Assembly (NCBI RefSeq): GCF_000266945.1 | Contig: NC_018025.1 | Location: 744,001 to 808,000 of the forward strand | DNA: 64,000 nucleotides | Direction of reading: 5' to 3' | Origin: Desulfomonile tiedjei DSM 6799 | Lineage (GTDB): Bacteria; Desulfobacterota; Desulfomonilia; Desulfomonilales; Desulfomonilaceae | Shown here: positions 34,080 to 51,210 of the stretch, piece by piece | Numbering within the stretch: position 1 is the stretch's first letter | How the letters are laid out: the number at the start of each line of letters is the position of its first letter | The notes under the pieces: generated by a model | The model's database searches: none | What the model was told of the DNA's origin: nothing | The model's input: the letters and a program-made list of their open reading frames with translations, nothing else | Position numbers and translations under genes: made by a program

Positions 34080-34778
34080 ATGGAAGACGATCTTGGACTC
34101 GCAACTGTAGAGCAGCCGGCTCAACTCGCCGCATTGGCCTACGAATCACTTCACAGGTCTATACTCAGCGGCCGCTTGAAAGTCGGCTCCCTCCACAATG
34201 AGATGAAGCTGGCAAGGGAACTCGGCATATCTAGAACCCCAGTCAGGGAGGCCCTCCTTGAATTGGCTTCCCGGGGCCTCGTAGAAATTCTCCCCCGTAA
34301 GGGAATTCGCGTTAAGCTTTTCACTGAAAAGGATGTTCACGAAGTATTTCAGATCCGAGAGATCATGGAAGTGGGTCTCATCGAATCGGTGGTAAGGCAA
34401 GGATGTGCGGGGCGATTGTCGGATCTTGAGGCAGCGCTGGAGCAGCAGCAGTCAGAGGCCGACAAAGGCAATCACCAGGGATTTCTCACGGCCGATCGAT
34501 TATTTCACAGCACTCTGTGTCAGCTCGCAGATAATAACCGTTTATCGGCTATCCTGGAGAACCTTCGCGATCTTATCCACGTCATGGGAGCCGAAGCACT
34601 TCTGCAGCAGGGAAGATTCAACGAGGTCGTCGCGGAGCATCGTGAAATTTGCCAGTATCTCAAAATGGGAAACGCGGAAGAAGCACGAGGTGCCGTGGTC
34701 CGACACTTGCTGCGATCCAAGAATGCCGTACTAGAACAATACCGCCAGCATCACACCATCACCGAGGATTCTCGTTAG
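34080..34778 (+). CDS. GntR family regulator, FadR subfamily (FCD domain)
   Basis: 232 aa; AAGGAGG lies five bases before the ATG. N-terminal winged helix (YESLHRSILSGRLKVGSLHN, LARELGISRTPVREALLELA) and a C-terminal all-helical FCD ligand domain with the usual metal-binding region (DRLFHSTLCQLADNN, AEHREICQYL). FadR-type regulators respond to carboxylic acid metabolites. It opens a long same-strand run of catabolic genes and probably represses them until the substrate is present (inference). Confidence 0.93.
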   Translation: MEDDLGLATVEQPAQLAALAYESLHRSILSGRLKVGSLHNEMKLARELGISRTPVREALLELASRGLVEILPRKGIRVKLFTEKDVHEVFQIREIMEVGLIESVVRQGCAGRLSDLEAALEQQQSEADKGNHQGFLTADRLFHSTLCQLADNNRLSAILENLRDLIHVMGAEALLQQGRFNEVVAEHREICQYLKMGNAEEARGAVVRHLLRSKNAVLEQYRQHHTITEDSR

Positions 34779-34822
34779 CCGATCCATCCCTTGTCTCACC
34801 AGGGTCGGCCCAGGAGTGAACA

Positions 34823-35722
34823 ATGAGGATTCGTTCGTTTGAGTATCATTCGTGCTCCAACGTCCAGGAGGCACTCGAATTTCTTAACGAGTATGGGTCA
34901 GACGCAAGAGTACTCGCCGGGGGCACTGACCTGGTTCTCGCCTTAAAAGCCAAAAAAATCAGACCTCCTCATGTTGTAAATATCGTCGATATTCCCGATC
35001 TGGATTACATCAGCAATTCGTCCGGAGCCATACGCATTGGTGCCCTGGCAAAACATGCGAGGATCACGTCGAGTTCCTTGCTGAAGGAGCATCTGTCTGC
35101 TCTTGGCAATGCCGCTGGGCTCATAGGTTCATGGCAACTCCGGAATGTCGGCACCATCGGGGGCAATCTGTGTAACGCCTCGCCGTCTGCGGATTCGGCT
35201 CCGCCATTGCTTGCCGCTGAAGCTGAAGCAGTCGTTCTTGATTCCAGAGGTGAATATCGGATTCCGATGAAGGATTTCTTTGTCGGTCCGGGGACCACTC
35301 GAATGAAGCCGACTCAGCTTCTCAAGGAAATCGTGATTCCGCTTAAGCAGGGAGGGGCGTGTCATAGCGTCTATCTGAAACTCAAAAGGAAAAAGGCGGT
35401 CGATCTAGCGCTGGTAGGCGTCTGCGTGCAAGCGCAACTCGATGAAGTCGGAGGCACGTTAAAGAGCGTCACAATCGCTCTTGGCGGAGTTGCTCCCACT
35501 CCTGTTCGAGCAGATGAGGCGGAAAAGATGCTCGTTGGTGTCACTCTGAAGCAAGCTCTTGAGATGCTGCCGGAGGTAGCCGAAGCAGCGATAGCCGTTA
35601 CGCGCCCCATAAGCGACGTGCGCGCAACTGCCGCATATCGCAAAGACATGGTACGAGTCTATGTGAGCAGAGCAGCCGGGGAGGTGTTCCAGTGCCTATC
35701 AGCGAGGATGGAGGACCAATGA
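34823..35722 (+). CDS. FAD-binding subunit of molybdenum hydroxylase 1 (CoxM-like)
   Basis: 299 aa. FAD motifs VLAGGTDLVLALKAKK (about 31) and GTIGGNLCNASPSADSAPPL (about 110). No extra 4Fe-4S insertion, in contrast to the subunit at 529. It transfers electrons from the iron-sulfur subunit to an acceptor. Gene order FAD, FeS, Mo with ATGA overlap makes this a three-subunit xanthine dehydrogenase/CO dehydrogenase family enzyme. Confidence 0.94.
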   Translation: MRIRSFEYHSCSNVQEALEFLNEYGSDARVLAGGTDLVLALKAKKIRPPHVVNIVDIPDLDYISNSSGAIRIGALAKHARITSSSLLKEHLSALGNAAGLIGSWQLRNVGTIGGNLCNASPSADSAPPLLAAEAEAVVLDSRGEYRIPMKDFFVGPGTTRMKPTQLLKEIVIPLKQGGACHSVYLKLKRKKAVDLALVGVCVQAQLDEVGGTLKSVTIALGGVAPTPVRADEAEKMLVGVTLKQALEMLPEVAEAAIAVTRPISDVRATAAYRKDMVRVYVSRAAGEVFQCLSARMEDQ

Positions 35723-36216
35723 AAACGCGGATTTCTGTAACAGTCAACGGTGAGAAACACGAACTGGAGATTAAACCGAATCGGACTCTCGCCGATCTCA
35801 TACGTATCGACTTGGGGTTGACTGGAACCAAGAAAGGATGCGGCCAAGGGAAGTGCGGAACCTGCACTGTGCTGCTTGAAGGAAAACCGGTCAACTCGTG
35901 TCTTATTCTGGCTCCTCAGGTAAATGGGAAGTCGGTTGTAACCATCGAAGGTTTGGCGAACGGTGAAAAACACCCCCTGCAGAGGGCCTTTGCGGAAAAA
36001 GGAGCCATCCAATGCGGATTTTGCACTCCCGGCATGATCATGACCGCAAAGGCGCTCCTCGACCAGAACCCTCATCCCACTGAGATGCAGATCAAAGAGG
36101 CAATTGGCGGGAACCTTTGTCGTTGCACCGGATATGCAAAGATTGTGGATGCGATCGATGCTGCGGCCGACATTATGAATGATGCTGCAGTCGAAATTGG
36201 AGGCCGCGATGTCTGA
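35719..36216 (+). CDS. 2Fe-2S subunit of molybdenum hydroxylase 1 (CoxS-like)
   Basis: 165 aa from ATG 35719, overlapping the previous stop and preceded by GGAGGA. Two 2Fe-2S sites: [14 protein letters not shown] with NSC, and [10 protein letters not shown] with LCRCTGY. Length and motifs are standard. It links the molybdenum site of the next gene product to the FAD subunit. Confidence 0.95.
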
Positions 36217-38485
36217 ATTCAGAGTTGTCGGCAAGTCGCTTCCCCAGATTGACGCTCTTCAAAAAGCCATCGGTGAAACAAGGTACGTCTCGGACATCAC
36301 ATTACCGAGGATGCTATACGGTCGTATTCTTCGTAGCCCTTATCCCCACGCTCGGATCCGAAATATTGACGTGTCTCGGGCTGAAGCGCTTCCTGGCGTA
36401 AAATCTGTCATCACCTATGCTGACACGCCCGCAGTAAGATTTGGCCCGCGATCCGAAGACTGGACGATCCTGGCGAATACCAAAGCGATCTTCGAAGGTG
36501 ATGAAATAGCCGCTGTGGCCGCTGTTGACGAAGATGTCGCCGAAGAAGCTTTGGAGCTCATCACGGTTGATTACGAACCGATTCCCGGCGTTTTCGATCC
36601 TCTGGATGCGATGGCTCCAGATGCTCCTCTTGTTCACGACGACAAACCCGGAAACATTGCCGCTGAGTTTTCCATTCAGGCAGGTGATGTGGACGATGCT
36701 CTCAAGCGTTCTCATTTCGTTTATGAGGCACGCTACTTCACCAACCAGGTGTACCAGGCATACCTGGAACCTATGGGAGCTGTCGCTCAAACAGATATAT
36801 CAGGGCGTCTTACGCTGTGGGTCGGCACCCAGATCCCCAACATGATGCGGATGAGCTATGCCAAAGCTTTGAGTATGGCTCCGGAAGACATTCGCATTGT
36901 CGTGCCGGATTATGGCGGAGCTTTCGGCGCCAAAATGGAAAACAATTCACATCTGGTGGCTGCTGTTCTCGCCAGGAAATCCGGACGACCTGTTAAGGTG
37001 ATCAATCCCCGCCAGGATGATTTCCTCGCCGGAAATCCCCGTGTCCCCATGTATATCGACATAAAGCTGGGGGTGGATTCCGACGGTATTCTCACCGGTA
37101 AAGACGTCAAAATTGTCGGTGGAAACGGCGCCCGCACCGTGTATGGGCCTGCCATTGTCTCCACCGCGTGCTATCGAGTCGATTCACTTTATCGTTTCAA
37201 GCACGTCCGGGCCAAAGGCTACACCGTCTATACGAACACGATTCCCACTGGCTGTTTCAGGGGTTTCGGTAATTCTCAATCAACATTCGCTTTGGAATCT
37301 TCGCTGGACGCGATCGCAGAAGAATTGAGCATGGATCCCATCGAGCTGCGGATGAAGAATGCGATAGGCCCGAATGAAGTAAGCGTCCATGGCTGGAAAA
37401 TAGGGAGTAACGGCCTCCGAGAATGCATGACGAGAGCAGCGGAAAGCGCACAATGGTCCGAAAAACGGTCCCAAAAGAAACCTTTCAGAGGCATTGGCCT
37501 TGCATGCTGTAATCACGTGTCAGGAAACAGGGCTTTTGCCAGAGAATTCGATGGAGGCTCAGGAATCATCCGAGTGGGACGTGACGGCCGAGTCACCCTT
37601 TATCATGGCGAGTCCGATATGGGGCAAGGTCAAAAGACTGCATTCGCTCAGATCGCTGCTGAAAAACTCGGCATCTCTCTTGAGCAAATCGAAGTCGCCG
37701 TTGTCGATACCGACGTATCTCCTTTCGGGCTGGGAAGCTTCGCCACCAGAGGGACTACCATCGGCGGTAATGGCGTGCTCTCTGCCGCAACGGAAGCTTT
37801 TCGTCAATTGGCGGGCGTCGCCGCGGACATGTTGGAGGCCAACGAGGACGACATTGTCGCTGCGAACGGTAAGTTCTTCGTCAAGGGGTCACCCGAAAAA
37901 TACATTTTGTTCAAGGAAGTGGCAAATCAGGCATCGACGAGTAGAGGAGGGGCGCCTCTGATTGCAGTAGGCAGTTACATTCCCCCGACGCAACTTCCCG
38001 ACCCCGTAACAAAATACGGCAATATATCGCCTGCTTACCCCTTTGGGTGCCACATCGCCGAAGTTGAAGTCGATCCGGAGACAGGGGAGATAACCGTGGT
38101 GAACTTTGTGGCAGCCCACGATGTAGGTAGAGCCATCAATCCTATGGCAACAGAGGGACAGATCGAAGGTGGTGTGGTTCAGGGACTGGGTTGGACGTTA
38201 ATGGAGAAGATGGTGGTAGAAAACGGCCATCTTGTTAACCCGAGCTTTCTTGACTACGAAATACCAGGCCCTCTCGATGTCCCTAAAATAACTCCTTTAC
38301 TGATTGAGTCCATTGAACCCGAAGGACCTTACGGTGCCAAGGGAATAGGGGAACCGGCGCTCAACCCGAGCATGGCTGCCATAACCAATGCCATTTATAA
38401 TGCCACCGGCGTGCGCATTCTCGCTCTTCCGGTCACTGCGGAAAAGTTGCTAAGCGAGTTGCACAAGCTAAGTGCGAATAAGTGA
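36209..38485 (+). CDS. Molybdopterin-binding subunit of molybdenum hydroxylase 1
   Basis: 758 aa from ATG 36209, five bases after GGAGG and overlapping the FeS gene. An a/b hammerhead domain comes first, then cofactor-binding motifs YGGAFGAKM, CFRGFGNSQ and the active-site glutamate motif GAKGIGEPA near the C-terminus. The CoxL active loop with its cysteine (AYxCSFR) is absent: the matching loop reads TGCFRGFGNS. So this is a hydroxylase of organic substrates, not CO dehydrogenase. Context points to an aromatic N-heterocycle or its derivative (inference). Confidence 0.93.
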   Translation: MSEFRVVGKSLPQIDALQKAIGETRYVSDITLPRMLYGRILRSPYPHARIRNIDVSRAEALPGVKSVITYADTPAVRFGPRSEDWTILANTKAIFEGDEIAAVAAVDEDVAEEALELITVDYEPIPGVFDPLDAMAPDAPLVHDDKPGNIAAEFSIQAGDVDDALKRSHFVYEARYFTNQVYQAYLEPMGAVAQTDISGRLTLWVGTQIPNMMRMSYAKALSMAPEDIRIVVPDYGGAFGAKMENNSHLVAAVLARKSGRPVKVINPRQDDFLAGNPRVPMYIDIKLGVDSDGILTGKDVKIVGGNGARTVYGPAIVSTACYRVDSLYRFKHVRAKGYTVYTNTIPTGCFRGFGNSQSTFALESSLDAIAEELSMDPIELRMKNAIGPNEVSVHGWKIGSNGLRECMTRAAESAQWSEKRSQKKPFRGIGLACCNHVSGNRAFAREFDGGSGIIRVGRDGRVTLYHGESDMGQGQKTAFAQIAAEKLGISLEQIEVAVVDTDVSPFGLGSFATRGTTIGGNGVLSAATEAFRQLAGVAADMLEANEDDIVAANGKFFVKGSPEKYILFKEVANQASTSRGGAPLIAVGSYIPPTQLPDPVTKYGNISPAYPFGCHIAEVEVDPETGEITVVNFVAAHDVGRAINPMATEGQIEGGVVQGLGWTLMEKMVVENGHLVNPSFLDYEIPGPLDVPKITPLLIESIEPEGPYGAKGIGEPALNPSMAAITNAIYNATGVRILALPVTAEKLLSELHKLSANK

Positions 38486-38656
38486 ATTTTACCTAGCTTA
38501 CAGTTTATTCTCAGCGTTTCACTCCTGACCGCCATGCGTACGTGGGTGCAAGACCCACGATAACTATTAATCGTATATTTTCCTGAGAAATGGTTTGGCA
38601 ACATTGCCCACTTTGGAAATCTGAACAGAAGGGCATCCAGACGAGAGGAGTAGGAA

Positions 38657-39697
38657 ATGAGAAGAAGGTGCGTTGTAGTGTTGGCGGTCTGTGCAGCCGT
38701 CACGATGCTGTTAGCTCTAATGGTAGGCCCGGTCTCGGCCGCGGACAAGACGTTTAAATGGCGTATGCAGACTTATGCATCATCGGGAACACCCGGGTTC
38801 CAGTCTCAGAAGATCGCACTGGAACACTTGAAAAAAGCTACGAACGGAAGACTTGACGTGACGCTTTTTGGGGTTGGTACCCTGGTCGGTCTCAGCGAGA
38901 TGTTGGAAGCCATCGGGAAGCGGAATTTCGAAGTGGGCCACAATGTGGACGCGTTCTTTGCAGGTAAAGATCCCGGTTTTGCTCCGATCTTTAGCGCCAT
39001 TGGTCTCTGGACGGACCCGAGGGAAGTTCGGGTATGGATCGAGGCCTTTGGTGGTAAGGAGCTCATGAAAAAGGCTTACGCCAAGTACAATGTTCATTAT
39101 GCGGGGTCGACACTGATCGGAGCCGAACCGATCATGTCGAAAAAACCGTTGAAGACCCTTGAGGACTTCAAAGGCTTGAAGATTAGAACACCCAGTGGTC
39201 TGACGGCCATGCTGTTCGAGAAACTTGGAGCGGTCCCTGTGGCTCTGGCTGGTAGCGAAATATATTCAGCTCTGGATACCAACGTGATTGACGCTGCCGA
39301 ATTCACCACACTTGGTGAGAATGTTCAAATGGGTCTTCATGAAGTCACCAAGTACGTTCTTTATCCGTCTTTTCACGGTCCTATAGCGGTGGTCAATATC
39401 GGCGTCAATATGGATGCCTGGAAAAGTCTGCCACCGGATCTTCAGGTCGCGTTCGAGATGATGGTGAAGGAAGCTGATTACCTGTATGACATACTTTCAG
39501 CCGCATCCGACTATAAAGCTCTGGCCGAGATCAAGAAGAAGGGCCTGCAGGTCGACAATCTTTCTCCGCAGGATATGGAAAAAGCCAAGCTTCTTTCGAT
39601 GGAAGTGGCCCTTGAATTTGCCAAGAAAAGTGAACTGTCAAAAGAGGTCATAGATTCCATTCTCAACTTCCTTCGAGTGGGAGACAAAATCAAGTAG
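38657..39697 (+). CDS. dctP: TRAP transporter solute-binding protein (DctP)
   Basis: 346 aa; GAGGAG precedes the ATG. Sec signal ending GPVSAADK. The mature protein has the DctP fold, with the family segment SKKPLKTLEDFKGLKIRTPS and the ligand-facing DAAEFTT region (residues ~210). TRAP systems import organic acids with a sodium gradient. Together with the next two genes it is a complete transporter, probably for the substrate of the surrounding catabolic genes. Confidence 0.93.
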   Translation: MRRRCVVVLAVCAAVTMLLALMVGPVSAADKTFKWRMQTYASSGTPGFQSQKIALEHLKKATNGRLDVTLFGVGTLVGLSEMLEAIGKRNFEVGHNVDAFFAGKDPGFAPIFSAIGLWTDPREVRVWIEAFGGKELMKKAYAKYNVHYAGSTLIGAEPIMSKKPLKTLEDFKGLKIRTPSGLTAMLFEKLGAVPVALAGSEIYSALDTNVIDAAEFTTLGENVQMGLHEVTKYVLYPSFHGPIAVVNIGVNMDAWKSLPPDLQVAFEMMVKEADYLYDILSAASDYKALAEIKKKGLQVDNLSPQDMEKAKLLSMEVALEFAKKSELSKEVIDSILNFLRVGDKIK

Positions 39698-39860
39698 GTT
39701 TGAACACCCCACTCGGACTATTCCTCGGACACGCGTACCAACCGTTTTACGCTGCTGTCCGTCAGTGCTGGGCCTTGGCACTCTTTCAAGGCCTGGCACG
39801 CCAAGAACCGGGCTGTCTCAGCGTGTCAGTGGAATAGTGACAAAGTGATGTGAGGTAAAT

Positions 39861-40367
39861 ATGGAGAAACTTGTCTCGGCAATAGACCACATTAGTGAGT
39901 GTCAAGGGAAAATCTTTTCCGTACTCTTGCTCGTGGTGACTCTACAAGTGTGTTACGAGGTTTTGCGGCGGTATTTTTTCGGATCCCCGACAATATGGGG
40001 ACTTGAACTCACCGAGTTTCTCTGTGCAATCATGTATATCATGGGTGGAGCATATGCCTCTGTAACAGATGCTCACATCAAGGTGGATGTGTTCTCTTCC
40101 CTGTGGTCGCCTAAAACGAGGGCACTAATAGACGTGTTCGTCACTGATGTGGTCTTCTTTCTGTTTTGCGGTGTGCTCGTTTGGCAAAGTGCTGTGTGGG
40201 CATGGGAAGCAATCGCATCAGGAATTACTACCGGCAGCATGTGGGACCCTCCTGTCTGGCCTGCTCGTGGAATCCTCTTTCTGGGCTCTGTAACTCTCTT
40301 TCTGCAGGGTTTTGCCAAGTTCGTCAGAGATATCCAGGTAGCTCTAGGCAAAAGGAGCGTGACATGA
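39861..40367 (+). CDS. dctQ: TRAP transporter small permease (DctQ)
   Basis: 168 aa with four membrane helices, the size and layout of DctQ. A 163-bp gap without a gene separates it from dctP; GAGGTAA precedes the ATG. It overlaps dctM by ATGA. Confidence 0.92.
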   Translation: MEKLVSAIDHISECQGKIFSVLLLVVTLQVCYEVLRRYFFGSPTIWGLELTEFLCAIMYIMGGAYASVTDAHIKVDVFSSLWSPKTRALIDVFVTDVVFFLFCGVLVWQSAVWAWEAIASGITTGSMWDPPVWPARGILFLGSVTLFLQGFAKFVRDIQVALGKRSVT

Positions 40368-41680
40368 GTCCGGCTGAAATCACCATCCTGATGTTCGGTT
40401 CCTTCTTTATCCTACTCATGGTCGGAGTGCCACTTGCATGGACCACGGCTGCTCTGGGACTGTTTTTCACCTATTTCCTCTGGGGAGTGGGGAACCTCAA
40501 TATCATCGTATTGCGCATTTACGATGTCATGGGTAGTTTCAGCCTTGTCGCCATACCTCTATTCGTCTTCATGGGCAACATACTCCAACAGTCTGGAATA
40601 GCGGAAGATCTCTTTCATGCGATTCACGTCTGGCTCGGTCGCCTAAAAGGAGGTTTGGCAGCAGCTACTATCGTCCTATGTTGCATCTTGGGAGCGATGA
40701 TCGGCACCGCCGGAGCGGATATCACTATTACCGGACTCATATGTCTTCCTTTCATGCTTCAGCGCGGATATGACCGTAAGATGGCTCTAGGAGCTATCGC
40801 TTCGGGTGGCGCTCTCGGTGTCCTTATTCCGCCGAGCATCATGTTTATCATCTACGGCGTCACCACCGGTCAATCTATCGGCAAACTCTTCATGGGCGGT
40901 ATCGGACCGGGATTGCTGTTCGGGGGGCTCTATATTGTTTACATTTTGACCAAATGTCATCTGAATCCAACTGCGGGGCCTCCGGCGACAGAAGATGAAA
41001 GAAACATGACGTTTCGCGAAAAATTGGGCCTGACCCGATCGTTGTTACTACCGATCCTCCTGATCATTGCAGTAATGGGAGCGATATTTTTCGGAGTAGC
41101 CACCCCTGGCGAAGCATCAGGAATAGGTGCACTCGGAGCGTTAGTCTGTGCAGCAGTACGGAAGACGTTGACCTGGGGCAACCTGAAGCAAAGTCTTTTT
41201 GCAACTATGAAGACTGTTGGACTGATTATGTGGATCGTATTCGGAGCAATGGTGTTCATCTGCACGTACACGCTTGCCGGCGGCGCCGAATTCGTCAGAG
41301 AGAGCTTGACAGCGCTTCCCCTCGGCCCATGGGGAATCCTCATTCTGATGCAACTCATTCTCCTGGCTCTCGGCATGGTTCTGGACATCATTGGAATTAC
41401 CGTATTGTTTGCTCCCATGTTCGTTCCAGTAATCAAGGAGTTGGGATTCGATCCTTTGTGGTTCGGGGTTCTATTCAATTTGAACTTGCAGATAGCATAT
41501 CTTTCGCCACCATTCGGCTACTCCCTGTTTTATCTCAAAGGAGTTGCCCCGTCTGACGTTACAATGACAGAGTTGTACAAGTCAGCTCTACCGTTCATGC
41601 TTCTGCAAGTGATTGGCATGATAATCTGTATGCTGTTTCCCCCGGTTATCACCTGGTTACCCAGCGTGATGATTAAATAA
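40364..41680 (+). CDS. dctM: TRAP transporter large permease (DctM)
   Basis: 438 aa from ATG 40364, overlapping the dctQ stop; the frame is open upstream inside dctQ. About twelve membrane helices. Typical DctM segments include IALFVFMGNILQQSGIA-like PLFVFMGNILQQSGIAEDLF and GALGVLIPPSIMFIIYGV. It forms the channel that couples sodium to uptake of the ligand held by DctP. Confidence 0.93.
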   Translation: MSPAEITILMFGSFFILLMVGVPLAWTTAALGLFFTYFLWGVGNLNIIVLRIYDVMGSFSLVAIPLFVFMGNILQQSGIAEDLFHAIHVWLGRLKGGLAAATIVLCCILGAMIGTAGADITITGLICLPFMLQRGYDRKMALGAIASGGALGVLIPPSIMFIIYGVTTGQSIGKLFMGGIGPGLLFGGLYIVYILTKCHLNPTAGPPATEDERNMTFREKLGLTRSLLLPILLIIAVMGAIFFGVATPGEASGIGALGALVCAAVRKTLTWGNLKQSLFATMKTVGLIMWIVFGAMVFICTYTLAGGAEFVRESLTALPLGPWGILILMQLILLALGMVLDIIGITVLFAPMFVPVIKELGFDPLWFGVLFNLNLQIAYLSPPFGYSLFYLKGVAPSDVTMTELYKSALPFMLLQVIGMIICMLFPPVITWLPSVMIK

Positions 41681-41809
41681 GAGAGCGTCAGGCACACGCA
41701 ACCTTATTGTGGGATCGTTAGACAAACCAGCCGGGCGTGAGCTGTCCGGCCCAGGACTCCCTGAGGAGTGAGAATACTGAAGTCGAAAATTCAAGGAGGA
41801 GCTTGACTA

Positions 41810-42151
41810 ATGCCTAAACCCGAAATCGAATTCATCGATTGCGACCTGAAGTACGAGTGGCGCCCCGTGGAAGGGGATAAATATGGCATTATGGAAAAAA
41901 TCCTGTCCCACGATCCGGAAACCGGCGACTATACTCGTTTGCTAAAATTTCCTCCAGGTACTGAAACCGAAGAAACGCTGGTTCATGATTTCTGGGAAGA
42001 AGTTTGGATCGTGGAGGGTTCGTTGTACGATATCGCTAAGGAGCAAACCTTCCTGGCCGGTTATTATGCATGTCGACCCCCGGGAATGATTCATGGACCC
42101 TACAGGATTCCTTACGGCTGTGTCACTTTCGAGCAGCGGTATTACAAATGA
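41810..42151 (+). CDS. Cupin-domain protein
   Basis: 113 aa, AAGGAGG before the ATG. A single cupin barrel: HDFWEEVWIVEGSLYD contains the first motif (His/Glu ligands) and PPGMIHGPYRIPYG the second with its histidine. It most likely binds a metal and acts on a small molecule or as a tautomerase/isomerase. Small cupins of this kind are common in organic acid catabolic operons; the exact reaction cannot be read from sequence. Confidence 0.82.
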   Translation: MPKPEIEFIDCDLKYEWRPVEGDKYGIMEKILSHDPETGDYTRLLKFPPGTETEETLVHDFWEEVWIVEGSLYDIAKEQTFLAGYYACRPPGMIHGPYRIPYGCVTFEQRYYK

Positions 42152-42236
42152 TGGGGCCAGTGCACTCCATTGGTAACCGAAGCCTTAAATCCGCAGCAAG
42201 GATTTGGCCTGCTGATGGATATAAAGGGGGGTTTTC

Positions 42237-42932
42237 TTGAACATAGTAATAGATGTGATCCATGGCGGTGAAGCTCATCAGTGGAGTTTCGAATTCTCAC
42301 GAATGGTGAATGCCGGATATGTCGGCCGCAACCAGGATGAAGTGAGACGCCATATCGAAGAATTGGCAGTGAAGGGAATACCGGGTCCAAAGAAGACGCC
42401 AACTCTCTACCCTGTTATCACCAGAGCACTGCAAACCGATCCGTTGGTGGAGGTTTACGGTGCCGCAACTTCCGGCGAAATTGAATATGTGTTGCTGGTG
42501 GAGAATGAAGAAAAAGTCTTGGTAGGGCTCGGTAGCGACCATACAGACAGGCATCTGGAAGAGACGGATATCCCCAGGGCCAAGCAGATCTGCCCAAATA
42601 TCATGAGCAAGCAAGTCTGGCTACTCTCAGATGTGGAAGATCACTGGGACGATCTCATTATGCGGAGCCGGGCTGTGTCCGAAGGCAAGGAAGTTCCTTA
42701 TCAGGAAGGTCGCCTTGGGCTACTCATGAGTCCAAGACAGTTGATGGCCTTTATCAAGTCGGAAATAGGTCCCCTGGATAACACAGTTATCTTCTCCGGT
42801 ACACTGGGCATGCTCACCGGCGACTTCGTTTGCGGTGAACGCTTCCTGGGAGAACTCGTAGATGAACGACTGAACAGGCGTTTAACGCTTGAATATGAAG
42901 TCAGCAAGCTTGACTATGTAAATCTGGACTAG
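42237..42932 (+). CDS. DUF2848 family protein (fumarylacetoacetate hydrolase-like)
   Basis: 231 aa from a TTG start preceded by a GGGGGG ribosome site. The GLGSDHTDRHLEE segment and the RQLMAFIKSEIGPL region match the DUF2848 family, related to fumarylacetoacetate hydrolases that cleave C-C bonds or decarboxylate ring-opened acids. In this operon it could process a ring-cleavage product (inference). Family assignment is from memory of the motif. Confidence 0.82.
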   Translation: MNIVIDVIHGGEAHQWSFEFSRMVNAGYVGRNQDEVRRHIEELAVKGIPGPKKTPTLYPVITRALQTDPLVEVYGAATSGEIEYVLLVENEEKVLVGLGSDHTDRHLEETDIPRAKQICPNIMSKQVWLLSDVEDHWDDLIMRSRAVSEGKEVPYQEGRLGLLMSPRQLMAFIKSEIGPLDNTVIFSGTLGMLTGDFVCGERFLGELVDERLNRRLTLEYEVSKLDYVNLD

Positions 42933-42954
42933 TCATTTGAGGAGATGGTCGGCC

Positions 42955-43746
42955 ATGAAGGTCTCATCAATACAGATGGCGGTTGTTGAAGGAAATAAAA
43001 CCGCCACCATCGAAAAAGCTTTGGAACTGATCCGCAAGGAACGAGAAGCCGATCTCATTATTCTACCTGAACTGTGGAATGTAGGATTTATGAGCTTCGA
43101 CCGATATGTCCCGGAGGCGGAAACCAAAGACGGACCGTTGTTAAATACGTTGAAAGACCTGGCGAGGGAGATGCAGGTTCATCTCCATACGGGTAGCTTC
43201 GTCGAAGAAGATAATGGACGCTACTACAATTCGAGTTATCTCTTATCGCCTGGTGGAGAGATCTTGGCCAACTATCGCAAGATCCATCTCTTCGGTTTTA
43301 ACTCAAAAGAAACACAGATCCTGAGCCCAGGCCACGAGGTAGTGGTGGCCGATACGAAGCTCGGAAAGCTGGGTATGGCGACATGTTACGACTTGAGATT
43401 CCCCGAACTCTTCCGTCGTATGGCTTTCATGGGCGCCGAGCTCTTTCTCGTGTGTTCTGCTTGGCCATACCCACGCCTCGAGCATTGGATAATGTTGAAT
43501 CGAGTGCGAGCCTTGGAAAACCTTTGCTTTCTCGTCTCATCCAACTCGGTTGGTCCCAATGCAGGAGCAAACTTCATGGGACACAGCATGATGGTGGACC
43601 CAATGGGAATAATCCTGACAAGCGGCGGTGACGAGGAAGTCACGCTCAGATACGATCTTGAGTTAAAGGATGTGGACAGGCATAGAGGCAGTTTTCCTGC
43701 TTTTTCAGACCGAGTGGATTGGTTGAATCCAGTGGGCTCGCAATAG
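42955..43746 (+). CDS. Nitrilase-superfamily amidohydrolase (carbon-nitrogen hydrolase)
   Basis: 263 aa from ATG 42955, about nine bases after GAGGAGA. The catalytic triad is complete: Glu39 (ILPELWNVGF), Lys109 (NYRKIHLF) and Cys144 (ATCYDLRFPE). Sequence around the triad is most like omega-amidases and related small amide hydrolases. It would hydrolyse an amide or carbamoyl compound, which fits the opening of a reduced lactam or a later amide step in N-heterocycle breakdown. Confidence 0.93.
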   Translation: MKVSSIQMAVVEGNKTATIEKALELIRKEREADLIILPELWNVGFMSFDRYVPEAETKDGPLLNTLKDLAREMQVHLHTGSFVEEDNGRYYNSSYLLSPGGEILANYRKIHLFGFNSKETQILSPGHEVVVADTKLGKLGMATCYDLRFPELFRRMAFMGAELFLVCSAWPYPRLEHWIMLNRVRALENLCFLVSSNSVGPNAGANFMGHSMMVDPMGIILTSGGDEEVTLRYDLELKDVDRHRGSFPAFSDRVDWLNPVGSQ

Positions 43747-43797
43747 GACTCTGTTTCAAACCAATCGAAACAGAGGGAGTAACGAGGAGTTTAGAAC

Positions 43798-44991
43798 ATG
43801 GCTGATCTATCAGTCCAATTTTGTGGAGTACGTATCAAGAATCCCGTATTAGCAGCATCCGCCGAACCTACTTTAAATGCCGGCAATATGAACAAGTGCA
43901 TCGAAGCAGGTGCCGGTGGTGTAATCGCTAAGACAATGACAGACTCACCTGCGATGCGTGAGCTCACAACTCGCTCCAAATGGCGTTTTCTTGACCAACG
44001 TCATGAGGTGTGTCATGGCAAAGTTCCGCGAGCGTTCAGTCTATACGGGCGAAGCGGCCTGGCGCTTGAAACCCCGGAGGAGTTTCTGCCGGAAATACGG
44101 AAAACACTTAAGTTTGCTGCTGACAATGATGCAGTCGTGGTCGGTAGTATCGGTTCCACCGAGATATCCGGATGGGTCGAACTGGCAAAGCAGATGGAAG
44201 ACGTAGGCGTACCTCTGCTCGAGTGCAACTTCGGATGCCCTCACCCCAAAATGATGCCCGGAGTCAGAACCGGTATGAATGTAGGCCAGGATTTCAATTA
44301 TGCCTGCGAGATCACCCAGGCGGTCGCAGAAGCAGTGCGCATACCAGTGATGATCAAGGTGACACCCCAGGTGAACGATCTCGTCGGATTCTCGGGCCGT
44401 CTCCTTGATGTAGGGGCGAAAGCGGTCACATTGACGAACCGATTTATCGGATTTGTGCCTGATATTGAGAGCGGAAAGCCACTCATTTGGGGTCAAGCGG
44501 GAATCGGCGGACCGTGGGTAAAACCCCTCACCCTTAGATGGATACGAGAAGTCTACCTGGCATACAAGGAGCGAGTGGCTATTGCAGGCACGAACGGCGC
44601 GTACGACTGGCGTGACATTGTCATGTTCGTCATGAGTGGAGCGGATATCGTGGAGATGTGCTCTGCCGTCATGGTTTACGGCTATGAGTGGTTGGGCAAG
44701 CAGGTCAAGGGGCTCGAAGAATGGATGGATGCTAAAGGATATAAGAGCCTGGCCCAAATGAAGGGAATCGCAGCGGAAGCAGCTTTACCGTATGCGAACA
44801 TGCCCTCCGAAAAAGCTCGAGTTATCGAAGACGCCTGCATCGGCTGTAAACGCTGTTTGGACGCATGTTTCTATAACGCCATGCAAGATGGTGGCGAAAA
44901 AACACACGTGCTTGAAGAAAATTGCATCGGCTGTGGCGGATGTCTCTCAGTCTGCCCCCAAGCAGGAGCAATCGAAATAAACGTCGTGTGA
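43798..44991 (+). CDS. PreA-type dihydropyrimidine dehydrogenase-like ring reductase with ferredoxin domain
   Basis: 397 aa. Residues 1-320 form a dihydroorotate dehydrogenase-like FMN barrel. The loop ECNFGCPHPKMM keeps the Cys-Pro-His of dihydropyrimidine dehydrogenase, but the following GMGERG part differs (PGVRTGMNVGQ), so the substrate may not be uracil. C-terminal 4Fe-4S motifs CIGCKRCLDAC and CIGCGGCLSVCP supply electrons. No PreT-like FAD partner lies next to it, so reduced ferredoxin may be the direct donor. Expected reaction: reduction of a C=C bond in a hydroxylated N-heterocycle. Confidence 0.9.
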   Translation: MADLSVQFCGVRIKNPVLAASAEPTLNAGNMNKCIEAGAGGVIAKTMTDSPAMRELTTRSKWRFLDQRHEVCHGKVPRAFSLYGRSGLALETPEEFLPEIRKTLKFAADNDAVVVGSIGSTEISGWVELAKQMEDVGVPLLECNFGCPHPKMMPGVRTGMNVGQDFNYACEITQAVAEAVRIPVMIKVTPQVNDLVGFSGRLLDVGAKAVTLTNRFIGFVPDIESGKPLIWGQAGIGGPWVKPLTLRWIREVYLAYKERVAIAGTNGAYDWRDIVMFVMSGADIVEMCSAVMVYGYEWLGKQVKGLEEWMDAKGYKSLAQMKGIAAEAALPYANMPSEKARVIEDACIGCKRCLDACFYNAMQDGGEKTHVLEENCIGCGGCLSVCPQAGAIEINVV

Positions 44992-45007
44992 ACCGGGCCT
45001 AGTCCCA

Positions 45008-45916
45008 ATGAGGTTTACGAACGTGCGCTGGCAAAACTATCACGTGATGAGCAACCTTCCTGAGTTGCTCGAGAGCCTTGGCCAACTTGATGGCCGAGGC
45101 AGAGTGGTCGCAGGCGGAACCGATCTGATCGTGCGGCTGAAAGAAACGGATATGCCTTCGCAGCCGCTGACCTTGCTGGATGTCACCAGAATCGATGCCA
45201 TGCGAGGAATCAAGCAGATTGGTGACGACATCCATATCGGGGCCGCAACAACCATTTCAGAGATCTCAAACTCACCGCTTATCGGGTTAAAAGCTCGGGC
45301 TCTGGCGCAAGGAGCCGGCTGGTTAGGATCGCCTCAAATAAGAACCGTTGCCACCATCGGCGGCAATGTCGTTAACGCTCTCCCTGCAGCGGATACGTCG
45401 GTTCCTCTGGTGGCTCTCGGCGCTCGCGCTCGTATCGTGTCCGCGCGTGGCGAGAGGATAGCACTCGTTGAAGATCTTTTCCGTCGGGTCGGCGAGAGCG
45501 CGATAGATCCGACTCGTGAGGTGGTCACAGAATTTATCGTAAAGGCCGATCTTGCTCCCTGTGGGGCCAGTGCCATGACCCGTATGGCCAAACGCAAAGC
45601 ATTCACCCTTCCGATTCTCTCAGCAGCGGTTTGGATAGATCTGGACAAAGCAGGCGAGCGCTTCCAGGCTGTTCGCATCGTTGCGGCTCCGGTCGCTCCT
45701 GTTCCGTGGCGAGCCAAACGTGCGGAAGAGGTTATCTCGGGACGAGAAATCTCGAGCAGGAGTATTGAAGAAGCAGCCGCTCTGGCTGGCGAGGATGCGA
45801 AGCCTGGTAGTTCGTTACGCGGTGGCTCGGCGTACCGCAAGGATATGGTCGTTGTCCTGGTGCGGAGGGCTCTACGGGATGCTTTGAAGCAAGTGGATAG
45901 AGTGCCCCATGAATGA
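45008..45916 (+). CDS. FAD-binding subunit of molybdenum hydroxylase 2
   Basis: 302 aa, starting 16 bp after the ring reductase gene. FAD motifs VVAGGTDLIVRLKE (about 36) and ATIGGNVVNALPAADTSVPL (about 117). No extra cluster insertion. It overlaps the next gene by eight bases. It is a paralogue of the subunit at 34823. Confidence 0.93.
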   Translation: MRFTNVRWQNYHVMSNLPELLESLGQLDGRGRVVAGGTDLIVRLKETDMPSQPLTLLDVTRIDAMRGIKQIGDDIHIGAATTISEISNSPLIGLKARALAQGAGWLGSPQIRTVATIGGNVVNALPAADTSVPLVALGARARIVSARGERIALVEDLFRRVGESAIDPTREVVTEFIVKADLAPCGASAMTRMAKRKAFTLPILSAAVWIDLDKAGERFQAVRIVAAPVAPVPWRAKRAEEVISGREISSRSIEEAAALAGEDAKPGSSLRGGSAYRKDMVVVLVRRALRDALKQVDRVPHE

Positions 45917-47666
45917 AACTACAATAACTTTCAGCGTCAACAATGTGATGCGCACGGTCAGAGTGGCCGAAGACGCCCTGTTACTGGAAATCCTGCGGGA
46001 CGACCTGAAATTGACCGGAACCAAGGAAGGCTGTGGAAACGGCGAATGCGGAGCCTGCACGGTGCTGATCGATGGAGAACCTGTGGCATCTTGCATCTAC
46101 CCGGCCAAGGCAATCCATGGGCGAAGTGTGGAAACCATCGAGGGCCTGGGAGCGCAGAATCGACTGCATCCACTCCAGAGTTGGTTTCTGAAGCTCGGGG
46201 CAATCCAGTGCGGGTTTTGTACTCCAGGCCTGTTGATGACGTGCAAGTCGTTCCTTGACCGAAATCCCAACCCCACTCCGGAAGAGGTGAAAGAAGCAAT
46301 CACCGGCAATCTTTGTCGATGTACCGGTTACACCAAAGTTGTCAAGGCCGTGATGGCTGCCGCGGCAGAGCTGAGAGGAGAAACCCCGGAAGCTCCTGAA
46401 GATGCTCCCGGATGCCCTCCTGTCGGTCGCTCTTTGATCAAAGTAGATGGATTGCCCAAGGTGCTAGGCGCGGCGAAGTTTGCAGCAGATATCGGCAGAG
46501 CCGATATGCTCCACGCCGCTATGGCGGTCAGTCCGTACCCTCATGCCAGGATACTCTCCATTGATCCGGGGGCCGCTCTGGCTATGGCCGGAGTACATAG
46601 GGTCATTACCGGTCATGATATCCAGGGAGAGACCTTGTACGGCGTGAACATAAAGGATCAGCCATTCCTGACCCGTGAGGTCGTGCGGTTCGCCGGTGAG
46701 CCTGTTGCTATTGTTGTGGCTGAGACCAGAAGGTTGGCGCGGCTTGCCGTGAACGCGGTGCATGTCACTTACGAAGAGCTTCCGGCTGTCTTCGACCCCA
46801 GGGAGGCTATGAGCCCCGATGCCGTGAAGGTGCATGACAACGGAAACGTGCTGCTCTACCGCAAAATGAGAAAGGGCGACATCGATAAAGGATTTGCCGA
46901 GGCCCATGTGATTGTGGAGCGCAGTTTCACGACTCAGTCTGTGGATCATGCTTATATCGAACCGGAGGCGGCTCTTGCTTATTGGGATGGTGAGATGCTC
47001 GTGGTGGAATGCTGCAGTCAGGGGCCGCACTACCTGCGCCATGAAATCGCTCGTATGTTGAAGTTCCCCATCAGCCGGATCAGGGTGATACAGGCTACAA
47101 CGGGCGCCGGATTCGGCGGTAAGATAGATTTGCTCCTGCAGCACTTCGTCGCGTTGGGTACCTATCTGACCGGCCGACCTGTCAAGATGGTGTGGAGCCG
47201 GGAAGAGTCGCTGCGTACCAGCACCAAGCGCCATGCGTTTTACCTTCAGTACACTTTTGGAGCCACAAGAGAGGGAAGGCTCACTGCAGCAAAGGCCGAA
47301 ATCATCGGGAATACCGGCGCTTATGCATCATTCGGACCGGCGGTGCTTACTCGCTCGGCCACTATGGCCCTTGGTCCGTACGATTGCCCGAACGTGTGGG
47401 TCGATTCATATGCCGTGTACACCAACACTCCTATTGCCGGCGCGATGCGTGGCTTTGGGGCACCTCAGATGTCTCCTTGCCATGAGCCACTCATGGATGA
47501 GATTGGCCGAAGATGCGGGCTTTCCGCTGTTGAAATACGCAGGATCAACATGGTGCGTCCGGGGTCGTCCACTGTCACCCAACAAGTTTTGGAGGCCGGC
47601 GTAGGAGCCCTGGAAACTCTGGAGCGAGTGACCGGCCACCTCCCTTCACGGGAAATGGAGGGATAA
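45909..47666 (+). CDS. Fused 2Fe-2S subunit and N-terminal half of molybdopterin subunit, hydroxylase 2
   Basis: 585 aa. Residues 1-155 are a complete two-cluster 2Fe-2S subunit ([33 protein letters not shown]). Residues 170-585 hold the a/b hammerhead and first cofactor-binding domain (VGRSLIKVDGLPKVLGAAKF; GAGFGGKIDLLL; AMRGFGAPQM). The protein stops at the border to the second cofactor-binding domain, which is a separate gene. Nicotinate dehydrogenase of Eubacterium barkeri also has its molybdopterin chain split into NdhL and NdhM of similar sizes, but without the iron-sulfur fusion. Confidence 0.9.
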   Translation: MNETTITFSVNNVMRTVRVAEDALLLEILRDDLKLTGTKEGCGNGECGACTVLIDGEPVASCIYPAKAIHGRSVETIEGLGAQNRLHPLQSWFLKLGAIQCGFCTPGLLMTCKSFLDRNPNPTPEEVKEAITGNLCRCTGYTKVVKAVMAAAAELRGETPEAPEDAPGCPPVGRSLIKVDGLPKVLGAAKFAADIGRADMLHAAMAVSPYPHARILSIDPGAALAMAGVHRVITGHDIQGETLYGVNIKDQPFLTREVVRFAGEPVAIVVAETRRLARLAVNAVHVTYEELPAVFDPREAMSPDAVKVHDNGNVLLYRKMRKGDIDKGFAEAHVIVERSFTTQSVDHAYIEPEAALAYWDGEMLVVECCSQGPHYLRHEIARMLKFPISRIRVIQATTGAGFGGKIDLLLQHFVALGTYLTGRPVKMVWSREESLRTSTKRHAFYLQYTFGATREGRLTAAKAEIIGNTGAYASFGPAVLTRSATMALGPYDCPNVWVDSYAVYTNTPIAGAMRGFGAPQMSPCHEPLMDEIGRRCGLSAVEIRRINMVRPGSSTVTQQVLEAGVGALETLERVTGHLPSREMEG

Positions 47667-47667
47667 G

Positions 47668-48690
47668 ATGAAGAAGCGCGGAGTAGGTCTTGCTTGCATT
47701 TACTTTGGTATGGGCAATACAGCGAAACCCAATCCATCCAGCGCGTACGTGGAGTTGCTGGAGGACGGTTCTTGTCTTGTGCGTTGCGGAGCAGCCGACC
47801 TGGGGCAGGGTTCGGACACGGTACTGGTCCAGATCGCCGCGATGGCGCTGGGCTTGAAGCCTGAAGTAGTGTTCATCGAATCCGCAGACACGCTCACAAC
47901 CCCTGAGGCCGGTATGAGCTCCGCCAGTCGGCAGACGTATGTGTCGGGAAATGCGGTGCGCATTGCAGCAGAAAAAGTGAAGGAGCTAATTCTGAAGCAA
48001 GCAGAGGATGACTTAGAGGCCAGGGGAGAGGATCTCGTCATATTTGACGGCCTGGTGTACGTTCAGGGGGCTCCCGATTCCGGCACCACGGTCGAACACA
48101 TTTGCCGTAATCTGCGTGCCCGAGGCATTCTAACCTCTGCATGGGGCTCCTTCAACCCGCCAACTCCGGAGATGCTGGATCAGGAAACTGGAGCCGGCAT
48201 CCCTTACGGAGCTTATTCGTACGCTGCTCAAGCGGTGGAAGTTGAAGTAGACACCGAGACTGGCGAGTTTGACATCATCCGTGTCATAGCAGCGCATGAT
48301 GTGGGAAAGGCCGTCAATCCCATGGGAGTAGAAGGGCAGATTGAGGGAGGAGTGGTAATGGGCCTCGGATACGGGACCATGGAGGAATTGGTGTACAAGG
48401 ATGGTCAGTTAACTACGACCGGCTTTGGCACGTACCTTCTTCCGACTGCGCTCGATGCTCCTCCCGTCGTGCCAATCATCGTCGAAGAGCCGGAACCCAC
48501 GGGGCCGTTCGGCGCAAAGGGCACCGGAGAACCGCCTGCCTGCCCGACTGCAGCAGCTCTTCTCAATGCCATATATGATGCCGTGGGCGTGAACATTACC
48601 TCGCTACCCGTGACAGCCGAGAAGGTCTATGAAGGTCTTCGCACTCTTGAAAAGGATCGAAATGAGATTGGCCGAAATGGTAGCAATTAA
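47668..48690 (+). CDS. C-terminal half of molybdopterin subunit, hydroxylase 2 (NdhM-like)
   Basis: 340 aa with its own ATG and a GGAGGG site six bases upstream, two bases after the previous stop and in a different frame. It begins with KKRGVGLACIYFGMGNT, which in unsplit relatives lies mid-protein, and carries GAADLGQGSDT, DVGKAVNPMGVEGQIEGG and the active-site glutamate motif GAKGTGEPP. With the preceding 420 residues it adds up to 760, matching the intact subunit of hydroxylase 1. A frameshift is possible, but the clean start signal favours a true split. The stop codon overlaps a family B repeat. Confidence 0.9.
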   Translation: MKKRGVGLACIYFGMGNTAKPNPSSAYVELLEDGSCLVRCGAADLGQGSDTVLVQIAAMALGLKPEVVFIESADTLTTPEAGMSSASRQTYVSGNAVRIAAEKVKELILKQAEDDLEARGEDLVIFDGLVYVQGAPDSGTTVEHICRNLRARGILTSAWGSFNPPTPEMLDQETGAGIPYGAYSYAAQAVEVEVDTETGEFDIIRVIAAHDVGKAVNPMGVEGQIEGGVVMGLGYGTMEELVYKDGQLTTTGFGTYLLPTALDAPPVVPIIVEEPEPTGPFGAKGTGEPPACPTAAALLNAIYDAVGVNITSLPVTAEKVYEGLRTLEKDRNEIGRNGSN

Positions 48691-48781
48691 TGCCAATTTG
48701 CTCTCAAGTTAAACGAAAATCCCCTCTAACCCCTTTTTATTAAAGGGGGGAATGGGGGGATTTTGAATCAAATTGGTATAA
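48689..48781 (+). repeat. Family B inverted-repeat element
   Basis: Ends TAATGCCAATTTGCTCTCAA and the inverse TTGAATCAAATTGGTATAA, with a C-rich/G-rich hairpin between. Its left end includes the stop codon of the hydroxylase gene and its right end lies 16 bp before the next gene. Confidence 0.8.
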
Positions 48782-48797
48782 GCAGGAGCTTGAAGAA

Positions 48798-49916
48798 ATG
48801 GGTCTTACGTTAATGGACGGCAACGAGGCTGTCGCGTGGGGAGCTCTCGACGCCGGATGTCGTTTTTTCGCCGGATATCCGATTACTCCGGCGACCACAA
48901 TATTCGAGACTATGATCAGGATTTTGCCTCCTTCCGGCGGCATAGTGCTGCAAGGAGAAGACGAAATCGCTTCCCTGGGATACTGCCTGGGAGCGTCCAT
49001 GGCTGGGTTCAAGTCGCTGACAGCCACGTCAGGTCCAGGAATCAGTCTTTACAGCGAGCACATCTCCTTCGCAATAGGATCTGAAATACCCGTAGTAATC
49101 GCTGATGTTCAACGACTGGGGCCCAGCACCGGCTATGCTACTATGGGTGCAGACGGCGATATCCAGTTCCTGCGCTGGGGAAATTCCGGTGGATTGCCTG
49201 TGATCGTCCTTTCCCCGGTGGACGTGCGGGACTGCTACATTCTCACCATACATGCATTCAATTTGGCTGAGACATTGAGATGTCCGGTATTTATTGCCTC
49301 AAGTAAGGAAATTGGCATGACCCGCGAGTCCGTAGACTTTGAGGCTTTTGAACCACCTGCATTAGTGGAAAGGGTCTACAACCCCAAAGGGTCTGAGTAC
49401 GCTCCTTTCAGGGCGGCACCAGGCACTCACGTTCCGTATTTCGCACCGATCGGAGATGACGTAATTTCCCGCCAAACTTCTTCCATGCATGGCGAGAATG
49501 GCTACATTACTGCGGATGCGGTTCAGATTGCGGCCCAGGTGGAGCGGTTAAAGCAAAAGTTGGAAGCCGAAATCGACACATTCACGTTCCACGAGGCCCA
49601 CATGCGGGCAGGAGCCGACACTCTGGTTATAACGTATGGGATTACGACTCGTGCGGCTCGCCAGGCTTGTCGGGAACTCGATGAATTGGGCACGCCTGTC
49701 TCGCACCTGGTGCTCAAGACCCTGTGGCCTGTTCCTGAAAAATTGATTCAGGAGACTGCCGTAGCATTCAGGCGAGTCGTGGTGATTGAAGCCAACCTGG
49801 GACAATACGTGCATGAAGTGCAAAGAGTGCTGAGAGACAAACGAGTAGAATTCTACGGGAAGATGGATGGCCACTTGATTTCCCCAGATCGCATCAAGGA
49901 GGTAATCCATGGCTGA
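48798..49916 (+). CDS. 2-oxoacid:ferredoxin oxidoreductase alpha subunit
   Basis: 372 aa, preceded by AGGAGC. Pyrimidine-binding N-terminal domain with GYPITPAT and the EDEIASLGYCLGASMAG region, then domain II (MRAGADTLVITYGITTRAAR). It lacks a fused gamma domain. With the next protein it oxidatively decarboxylates a 2-oxo acid to the acyl-CoA while reducing ferredoxin. In this operon it could process a 2-oxo acid end product and recycle ferredoxin for the ring reductase (inference). Confidence 0.92.
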   Translation: MGLTLMDGNEAVAWGALDAGCRFFAGYPITPATTIFETMIRILPPSGGIVLQGEDEIASLGYCLGASMAGFKSLTATSGPGISLYSEHISFAIGSEIPVVIADVQRLGPSTGYATMGADGDIQFLRWGNSGGLPVIVLSPVDVRDCYILTIHAFNLAETLRCPVFIASSKEIGMTRESVDFEAFEPPALVERVYNPKGSEYAPFRAAPGTHVPYFAPIGDDVISRQTSSMHGENGYITADAVQIAAQVERLKQKLEAEIDTFTFHEAHMRAGADTLVITYGITTRAARQACRELDELGTPVSHLVLKTLWPVPEKLIQETAVAFRRVVVIEANLGQYVHEVQRVLRDKRVEFYGKMDGHLISPDRIKEVIHG

Positions 49917-51210
49917 ACGGACACTTCTCAATCATGAGCGGCCACCCATATTCTGCCCTGGTTGCTCCCACGATAAGGTGCTCAGAGTTCTGGACAAGAC
50001 CCTTGTGAAAATGGGCCTTCAGGGTAACGAGATTTGCATTGTGACCGATATAGGCTGCTCGGGTTTTTTCGACGTTTTCTTGAACACCCATGCTTTCCAT
50101 GGCGTTCATGGTCGAGCCCTGACATACGCTGCGGGTATTAAGCTATGCCGGCCCGATCTCACTGTGATAGTGACTATGGGAGACGGTGGGCTCGGTATCG
50201 GTGGCGCACATATTCTATCAGCTTGTCGGCGAAACCTCGATCTCACGCTTCTCGTTCTGAATAACTTCAACTTTGGCATGACAGGCGGTCAGTGCTCGGT
50301 AACCACTCCGAACGAAGCTGTGGTGGCTTCGGGATTCTTGAACAGACTGGACAAGCCACTTGAAATAACATCAGTGGCTGCAAGTGCAGGTGCTCCGTTC
50401 GTATGCGATTGTTCTGCATACCAACCGGACCTCGGAGATATACTGGAGCGTGCCATCCGTTTCAAAGGTTTTTCCGTTGTAGATATACTCGAGCTTTGTC
50501 CCGGCAGGTACACGCGGCGCAACAAACTGACGGTCAAACATCTTGAAGAATCGTTGAAAGCTAAGGGTGCGTCCTGCAGCGAGGTTCCTCAAAATCAACG
50601 ACCGGAATACGGACAGCAGTATCGATTTGAGGCAGCCCAACAGCGATCCGTGAAACGGCCTAAGACGGTGGATGTGCGCTTCAAGCGCCACCAGGCAGGG
50701 CGCGAGGAAGTCGTCATCCTTGGAGCAGCCGGGCAACGGGTTGTCACTGCCGGCGAATTGCTCACCATAGCCGGTGTCACTGCAGGAATGTACTGCAGTC
50801 AGAAGAACGAATACGACGTCACTGTGTTGCGTGGTCCTTCTATCAGTGAGGTCATTCTTTCAGCTCACCCTATAGAGTATAACGGCTCTACAAGTCCAAA
50901 GGCGGTTATCGCCCTGGCCAACGAAGGAGTGAATCGACGTGTCAAACTCTTGAAGAATCTGCCGGAAGATGCCTTTGTGCTCGCCGCGGCCGGAATAGAC
51001 CTTCCGGAAACCGCTGCCGCAGTGCACCGGGTGGATTTCCGGTCCATGGGGATCAAACGGGAGGACTGGGCACTGGCCTCACTGGGTGTCCTGGCGAGTC
51101 GCGGGGAAGTCCTGTCCCGGGAGGAGCTTGATGCAGCGACCGAGTTCCGTTTCCAGGGCGAAACATTGCGACTTGTAAGAGAGTTACTGACTGGAATCCG
51201 TAGCCTTTGA
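49909..51210 (+). CDS. 2-oxoacid:ferredoxin oxidoreductase beta-gamma fusion
   Basis: 433 aa, overlapping the alpha gene by eight bases. Residues 1-250 are the thiamine pyrophosphate-binding beta subunit: FCPGCSHDK, the TPP motif MGDGGLGIGG ending in LNNFNFGMTGGQCS. Residues 265-433 are a gamma domain (VVILGAAGQRVVTAGELLTI) in which the usual GxGGQG motif is changed to GAAGQR. No separate delta ferredoxin subunit is present. The changed gamma motif may mean weaker CoA binding or an altered role. Confidence 0.88.
   Translation: MAERTLLNHERPPIFCPGCSHDKVLRVLDKTLVKMGLQGNEICIVTDIGCSGFFDVFLNTHAFHGVHGRALTYAAGIKLCRPDLTVIVTMGDGGLGIGGAHILSACRRNLDLTLLVLNNFNFGMTGGQCSVTTPNEAVVASGFLNRLDKPLEITSVAASAGAPFVCDCSAYQPDLGDILERAIRFKGFSVVDILELCPGRYTRRNKLTVKHLEESLKAKGASCSEVPQNQRPEYGQQYRFEAAQQRSVKRPKTVDVRFKRHQAGREEVVILGAAGQRVVTAGELLTIAGVTAGMYCSQKNEYDVTVLRGPSISEVILSAHPIEYNGSTSPKAVIALANEGVNRRVKLLKNLPEDAFVLAAAGIDLPETAAAVHRVDFRSMGIKREDWALASLGVLASRGEVLSREELDAATEFRFQGETLRLVRELLTGIRSL

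Follow-up and report, generated by a model that had tools for sequence, protein, structure and literature searches.

A molybdenum hydroxylase chain divided between two genes, the first fused to the iron-sulfur subunit, in Desulfomonile tiedjei DSM 6799

Two adjacent reading frames on the chromosome of Desulfomonile tiedjei DSM 6799, probably a dehalogenating sulfate reducer, together hold what is elsewhere one molybdenum (Mo) chain, and the question they raise is whether they encode two subunits of a working enzyme or the pieces of a broken gene. They lie in a stretch of 64,000 nucleotides (hereafter the window; G000:C1:744001-808000, part of a 6,500,104-bp chromosome), whose relevant features are collected in Table 1. 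An initial annotation, made from the letters alone, described 585-aa and 340-aa frames with a change of frame between them and a separate GGAGGG and ATG for the second, all of which are present in the sequence as claimed. Here, we refer to the first product as the fused S-L subunit, since it carries the iron-sulfur (Fe-S) domains and the first half of the Mo chain, and to the second as subunit M.

Table 1. Features of the operon that contains the split gene pair, in window coordinates
Feature	Position	Strand	Evidence
GntR/FCD regulator; second, unsplit Mo hydroxylase (FAD, Fe-S, Mo); DctPQM TRAP transporter	34080..41680	+	Pfam; tblastn to G188
Cupin-like, DUF2848, carbon-nitrogen hydrolase (three genes)	41810..43746	+	Pfam; syntenic in G188
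PreA-like dihydropyrimidine-dehydrogenase-type protein, two [4Fe-4S] motifs	43798..44991	+	Pfam DHO_dh + Fer4
FAD-binding subunit (302 aa)	45008..45916	+	Pfam FAD_binding_5, CO_deh_flav_C; 54% to syntenic G188 gene
Fused S-L subunit (585 aa)	45909..47666	+	Pfam; cysteine motifs; NdhL 3hrd_A match; model
Shine-Dalgarno-like GGAGGG	47657..47662	+	Sequence; five bases before M-gene ATG
Subunit M (340 aa), Mo chain second half	47668..48690	+	Pfam MoCoBD_2; NdhM 3hrd_B match
2-oxoacid:acceptor oxidoreductase, two genes	48798..51210	+	Pfam POR_N, TPP_enzyme_C, POR; NCBIfam; syntenic in G188

By their domain content, the pair and the FAD gene, whose stop overlaps the S-L start by a few bases, belong to the xanthine oxidase family of molybdenum hydroxylases. 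The domain set of the family, together with FAD_binding_5, is complete across the three genes above Pfam cut-offs, and the scores for the pair lie far over the cut-off for every domain but Fer2, where the margin is smaller. The 585-aa protein contains Fer2, Fer2_2, Ald_Xan_dh_C and MoCoBD_1, laid out as two [2Fe-2S] domains (residues ~1-155), a flexible linker (~156-171) and the first half of the Mo chain (172-574), and the 340-aa protein contains MoCoBD_2 alone. All of the iron-sulfur cysteines fall within the former, in [2Fe-2S] motifs at 42-62 and 101-138. The cofactor loops are present, with an RGFG loop motif at 512-517 of the 585-aa protein, and the GxKGxGE motif reads GAKGTGE at 282-288 of the 340-aa protein, with Glu288 as the catalytic residue. 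Such a layout is exceptional in its own genome: among 19 MoCoBD_2 matches, only that of the 45909-48690 locus has a frame as short as ~350 aa, the remainder being found in open frames of 764-908 aa. Against the NCBIfam equivalogs for xanthine, 4-hydroxybenzoyl-CoA and aldehyde enzymes, the gene pair stays below every cut-off, and the two halves score 527 and 157 bits against TIGR03311 (selenium-dependent xanthine dehydrogenase), together below its curated cut-off of 830.

At the junction, one base separates the S-L stop from the M start (TAA g ATG), and subunit M has no alternative start codon in its frame from 47632 to 47668. The break had been placed at a domain border, which Pfam bears out, though with a correction: the cut falls within the linker that joins MoCoBD_1 to MoCoBD_2, and by comparison with whole homologues part of this variable linker of ~14 residues is absent, with all core residues kept. 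Among PDB entries, the Mo part of the S-L protein best matches the NdhL chain from nicotinate dehydrogenase (3hrd_A, residues 8-411 of 425), and the 340-aa protein aligns end to end on NdhM (1-328 on 3hrd_B 1-329), both second halves starting with MKKRG. AlphaFold models of the two proteins have a pLDDT of 85.0 and 82.7, respectively, and the best Foldseek match of the 340-aa model is again 3hrd_B (TM 0.86/0.88). In the 585-aa model, residues 166-191 (the S-L linker) and the last 11 residues (575-585) fall below pLDDT 50, and a disordered linker and C-terminal tail would fit a two-domain S-L protein that ends at the cut.

The similarity to nicotinate dehydrogenase NdhFSLM (Eubacterium barkeri, PDB 3HRD) that the initial annotation had pointed to thus holds down to the residue: its Mo chain is cut at exactly the same place, its FAD subunit is separate as here, and the halves of the window pair best match NdhL and NdhM. 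The two differ in that the E. barkeri enzyme has four genes, one of them for a stand-alone Fe-S subunit, NdhS (PMC10331938), whereas the Fe-S domains are here fused to the L half. In addition, the Acetobacterium Ndh subunits are only about 42-44% identical to the window proteins and, unlike with Ndh, the window genes that adjoin the pair include no recognisable 6-hydroxynicotinate reductase or enamidase. The fusion, in turn, resembles the Desulfovibrio aldehyde oxidoreductase MOP (1SIJ/1VLB, 1DGJ), where two [2Fe-2S] domains are also N-terminally fused to the Mo chain; in MOP, however, this chain is whole (907 aa), whereas here it is cut in two with an FAD gene directly upstream. Consistently, the halves score 433 and 164 bits against NCBIfam NF045668 (MOP-type; one chain, no FAD subunit), short of its cut-off of 1100.

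Fused but unsplit Fe-S/Mo chains are common, at ~885-967 aa overall and ~889-967 aa for those from the family and the phylum. Next to an FAD gene, they are found in the TIGR03311 and TIGR03313 families and on Sulfitobacter and Fuscovulum plasmids (Roseobacter group), the latter with an adjoining 6-hydroxynicotinate reductase; these comparators have one gene of ~885-947 aa where the window has two. Of the whole chains that carry the fusion, the closest comes from the Chloroflexota genome G904 (L156:7419-10262) and is 48% and 51% identical to the two halves; this 947-aa Fe-S/Mo chain, accompanied by an FAD gene and a gene that by eye is enamidase-like, is possibly a one-chain nicotinate dehydrogenase. 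Conversely, split chains whose Fe-S gene stands apart turned up in Formimonas, in the Chloroflexota genome G809 and in five of 291 Clostridia, and in all split relatives detected in Clostridia and Chloroflexota the Fe-S subunit is separate. These further split relatives are cut at the same residue, with junctions that differ between lineages: the second gene follows in-frame after TAG in Formimonas, two Clostridia have an ATGA overlap, and the Acetobacterium genes are about 80 bases apart. In Formimonas (L139:9056-9061), the TAG that ends the L gene is followed immediately by the GTG of the M gene, and readthrough would rebuild the whole chain.

Our search for homologues with both the fusion and the split, as the initial annotation had proposed, identified two besides the window genome. 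One is genome G188, from another family of the same phylum; the other is the Phaeobacter piscinae plasmid pS26_248 (OL67_RS18510-18520), in which FAD, fused S-L (628 aa) and M (350 aa) genes are arranged as here, the pair is annotated in RefSeq as two separate genes, a tripartite tricarboxylate transporter adjoins, and the Mo halves are ~42-43% identical to those of the window. Across 395 sampled genomes of the phylum, the window genome and G188 were the only ones to yield second halves at E <= 1e-98, and both are split. Searches of further classes of the phylum, an archaeal phylum and the Formimonas class gave no additional fused-and-split case, and in a contig scan the nearest relative was about 43-46% identical over the whole query, with no fused-and-split form among the relatives. 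The cut-offs in our homologue searches were strict, so that remoter cases can have escaped. A literature search found no paper on the fission of such molybdenum chains. The architecture is distinct from nicotinate dehydrogenase, as had been claimed, though not unique to this genome; it is a novel combination of two rearrangements that are each already known, its novelty is modest, and the split is a real, modest variation on known enzymes.

Did the split arise once? We built three careful trees of 33-35 rows, in which split forms are scattered over four or five positions between whole chains. A single clade of all split forms was rejected (AU p 0.008 and 0.010), and Ndh clusters with whole-chain relatives to the exclusion of the window pair, with 96-97% support. 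Both results argue against descent of the window pair and nicotinate dehydrogenase from a common split ancestor, in which only the Fe-S fusion would be new. This reading is compatible with the function of a two-subunit enzyme, and in its favor are the break and start residues, identical to those of NdhL/NdhM, as well as the AU test, which does not reject one clade of the window pair with Ndh (p 0.084), even though the pair lies outside the Ndh clade (E. barkeri, A. bakii) in the best trees; we consider it a tentative and rather unlikely alternative. Deep branches are weak, so that the window pair and Ndh may share one origin, and clades of the window pair with Formimonas (p 0.108) or with Phaeobacter (AU p 0.26), or of all fused chains (p 0.099), are likewise not rejected. 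As judged from these trees, at least two fissions at the same MoCoBD_1/MoCoBD_2 linker are supported, with re-fusion of split genes as an alternative to repeated fission. We lean, by a small degree, towards the linker being a recurrent cut point to which at least two lineages, perhaps four or five, came independently, each time just before the same basic (K)-K-R-G strand and both with and without Fe-S fusion, such that subunit borders would shift freely with the electron path preserved.

Conservation in G188 bears directly on whether both genes are functional. The two proteins are 70% and 69.5% identical to those of G188, where the second half likewise comes after a fused protein, here of 579 aa, and lies in a different frame. 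Synonymous sites are saturated between the two genomes, with a pN of 0.21 against a pS of about 0.75 in both halves, and the resulting pN/pS of 0.28 for each half compares with 0.14-0.46 for neighbouring genes; both genes are under purifying selection. Conservation does not extend to the junction: the distance from stop to ATG is one base in the window versus about 16 in G188, and the junction sequences are unlike. Subunit M is in the +1 frame relative to the S-L gene in both genomes, and this shared frame relation could suggest a programmed +1 ribosomal frameshift that joins the frames into a fused chain, instead of or beside two proteins. We find this improbable, as the junctions are of unequal length and have no obvious common slippery motif, the frame relation varies in other split lineages, and the crystal contains NdhL and NdhM as two distinct chains.

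Still less probable is a decaying pseudogene, with the second half a remnant and the enzyme dead. The genome has many other Mo hydroxylases, so that such a loss could be tolerated, but the domains are full-length with intact catalytic motifs, both halves are under purifying selection, and the 17-kb operon is kept in another family. The least credible reading, in which a sequencing or assembly indel near 47600-47680 broke a single 925-aa chain, draws on the frame ahead of the M-gene ATG, which reads ...GKWRDKMKKRG and has a genome Pfam match starting just ahead of the ATG, so that it could mimic a continuing chain; it is refuted because G188 carries the same fusion and split with another junction sequence and spacing, and it also conflicts with the selection on both genes over saturated synonymous divergence, the lack of conservation in G188 of the open stretch upstream in the M frame, and the strong Shine-Dalgarno site at the ATG. 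Where the initial annotation had looked to raw reads for a frame-restoring indel, the comparison with G188 at ~70% identity answered in their place, and our search for a restored single frame at 47570-47760 gave only stops or unconserved sequence in the other frames.

We therefore hold it highly probable that S-L and M are partner subunits of a single functional enzyme from the xanthine oxidase family of molybdenum hydroxylases, most likely a normal Mo/two [2Fe-2S]/FAD enzyme. In our proposed model, which draws on the analogy with Ndh, the two [2Fe-2S] clusters and the initial half of the Mo-cofactor domain would reside in the 585-aa protein, subunit M would complete this domain and bring the catalytic glutamate, and FAD would come from the product of the overlapping upstream gene. 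Translation of subunit M would restart at its own ribosome site straight after the S-L stop, and the two halves would fold jointly around one molybdenum cofactor, like NdhL and NdhM, with electrons predicted to pass from Mo through the two [2Fe-2S] clusters to FAD. The arrangement may have originated by fission at the MoCoBD_1/MoCoBD_2 linker, with the N-terminal fusion of the Fe-S subunit occurring earlier or later.

The pair is part of a 17-kb operon (34080-51210) that contains two different Mo hydroxylases and whose order is conserved with G188. The order cupin, DUF2848, C-N hydrolase, PreA-like, FAD, S-L, M, 2-oxoacid oxidoreductase alpha and beta is the same in both genomes, and for the upstream part tblastn gave 42-73% identity with the order kept (DctM 77%). 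The PreA-like protein matches NCBIfam PRK08318 (PreA) below cut-off, and a relative of it (33%) also adjoins the split enzymes of Formimonas and G809. The beta gene of the oxidoreductase (49909-51210) has TPP_enzyme_C followed by a C-terminal gamma-type POR domain and is equal in length in G188. Outside the operon, a third Mo hydroxylase gene set on the minus strand at 1-2057 comprises FAD and Fe-S genes and a Mo chain that the edge of the window truncates.

The operon content led us to propose a substrate, probably an imported N-heteroaromatic acid, as guessed from the gene neighbours; pyridine carboxylates or pyrimidines would fit as a substrate class. In such a route, the TRAP transporter would take up the organic acid, the two Mo enzymes would carry out two hydroxylations, the PreA-like protein would reduce the ring, the C-N hydrolase and perhaps DUF2848 would perform a hydrolysis, and the neighbouring oxidoreductase would oxidise a 2-oxoacid. 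A literature search found no paper on DUF2848 and nothing useful on isonicotinate.

Nicotinate dehydrogenase hydroxylates nicotinate at C6, and its Mo carries selenium. YqeB, which marks selenium-dependent Mo hydroxylases (PMC2276186), is found in both genomes, in that of the window away from the operon. In G188, the operon is followed (L125:11457-14407) by a MoxR-like ATPase and a VWA-like protein, both read by eye as CoxD/CoxE-like, and by YqeB (TIGR03309), the last of these ~2.3 kb past the operon end; all three genes are absent from the corresponding place in the window genome. This circumstantial association suggests that the enzyme is possibly selenium-dependent, with a Mo-Se centre.

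Taken together, the split and fused pair is real, conserved and probably functional, with what is most likely ordinary chemistry in an unusual gene layout. The molybdenum-hydroxylase scaffold appears to tolerate a cut between its two cofactor domains and a joining elsewhere, and the break seen in nicotinate dehydrogenase turns up again in other operons. In annotation, such pairs should not be called frameshifted pseudogenes. The operon itself is a candidate locus for the anaerobic conversion of an N-heteroaromatic acid by a so far undescribed route.
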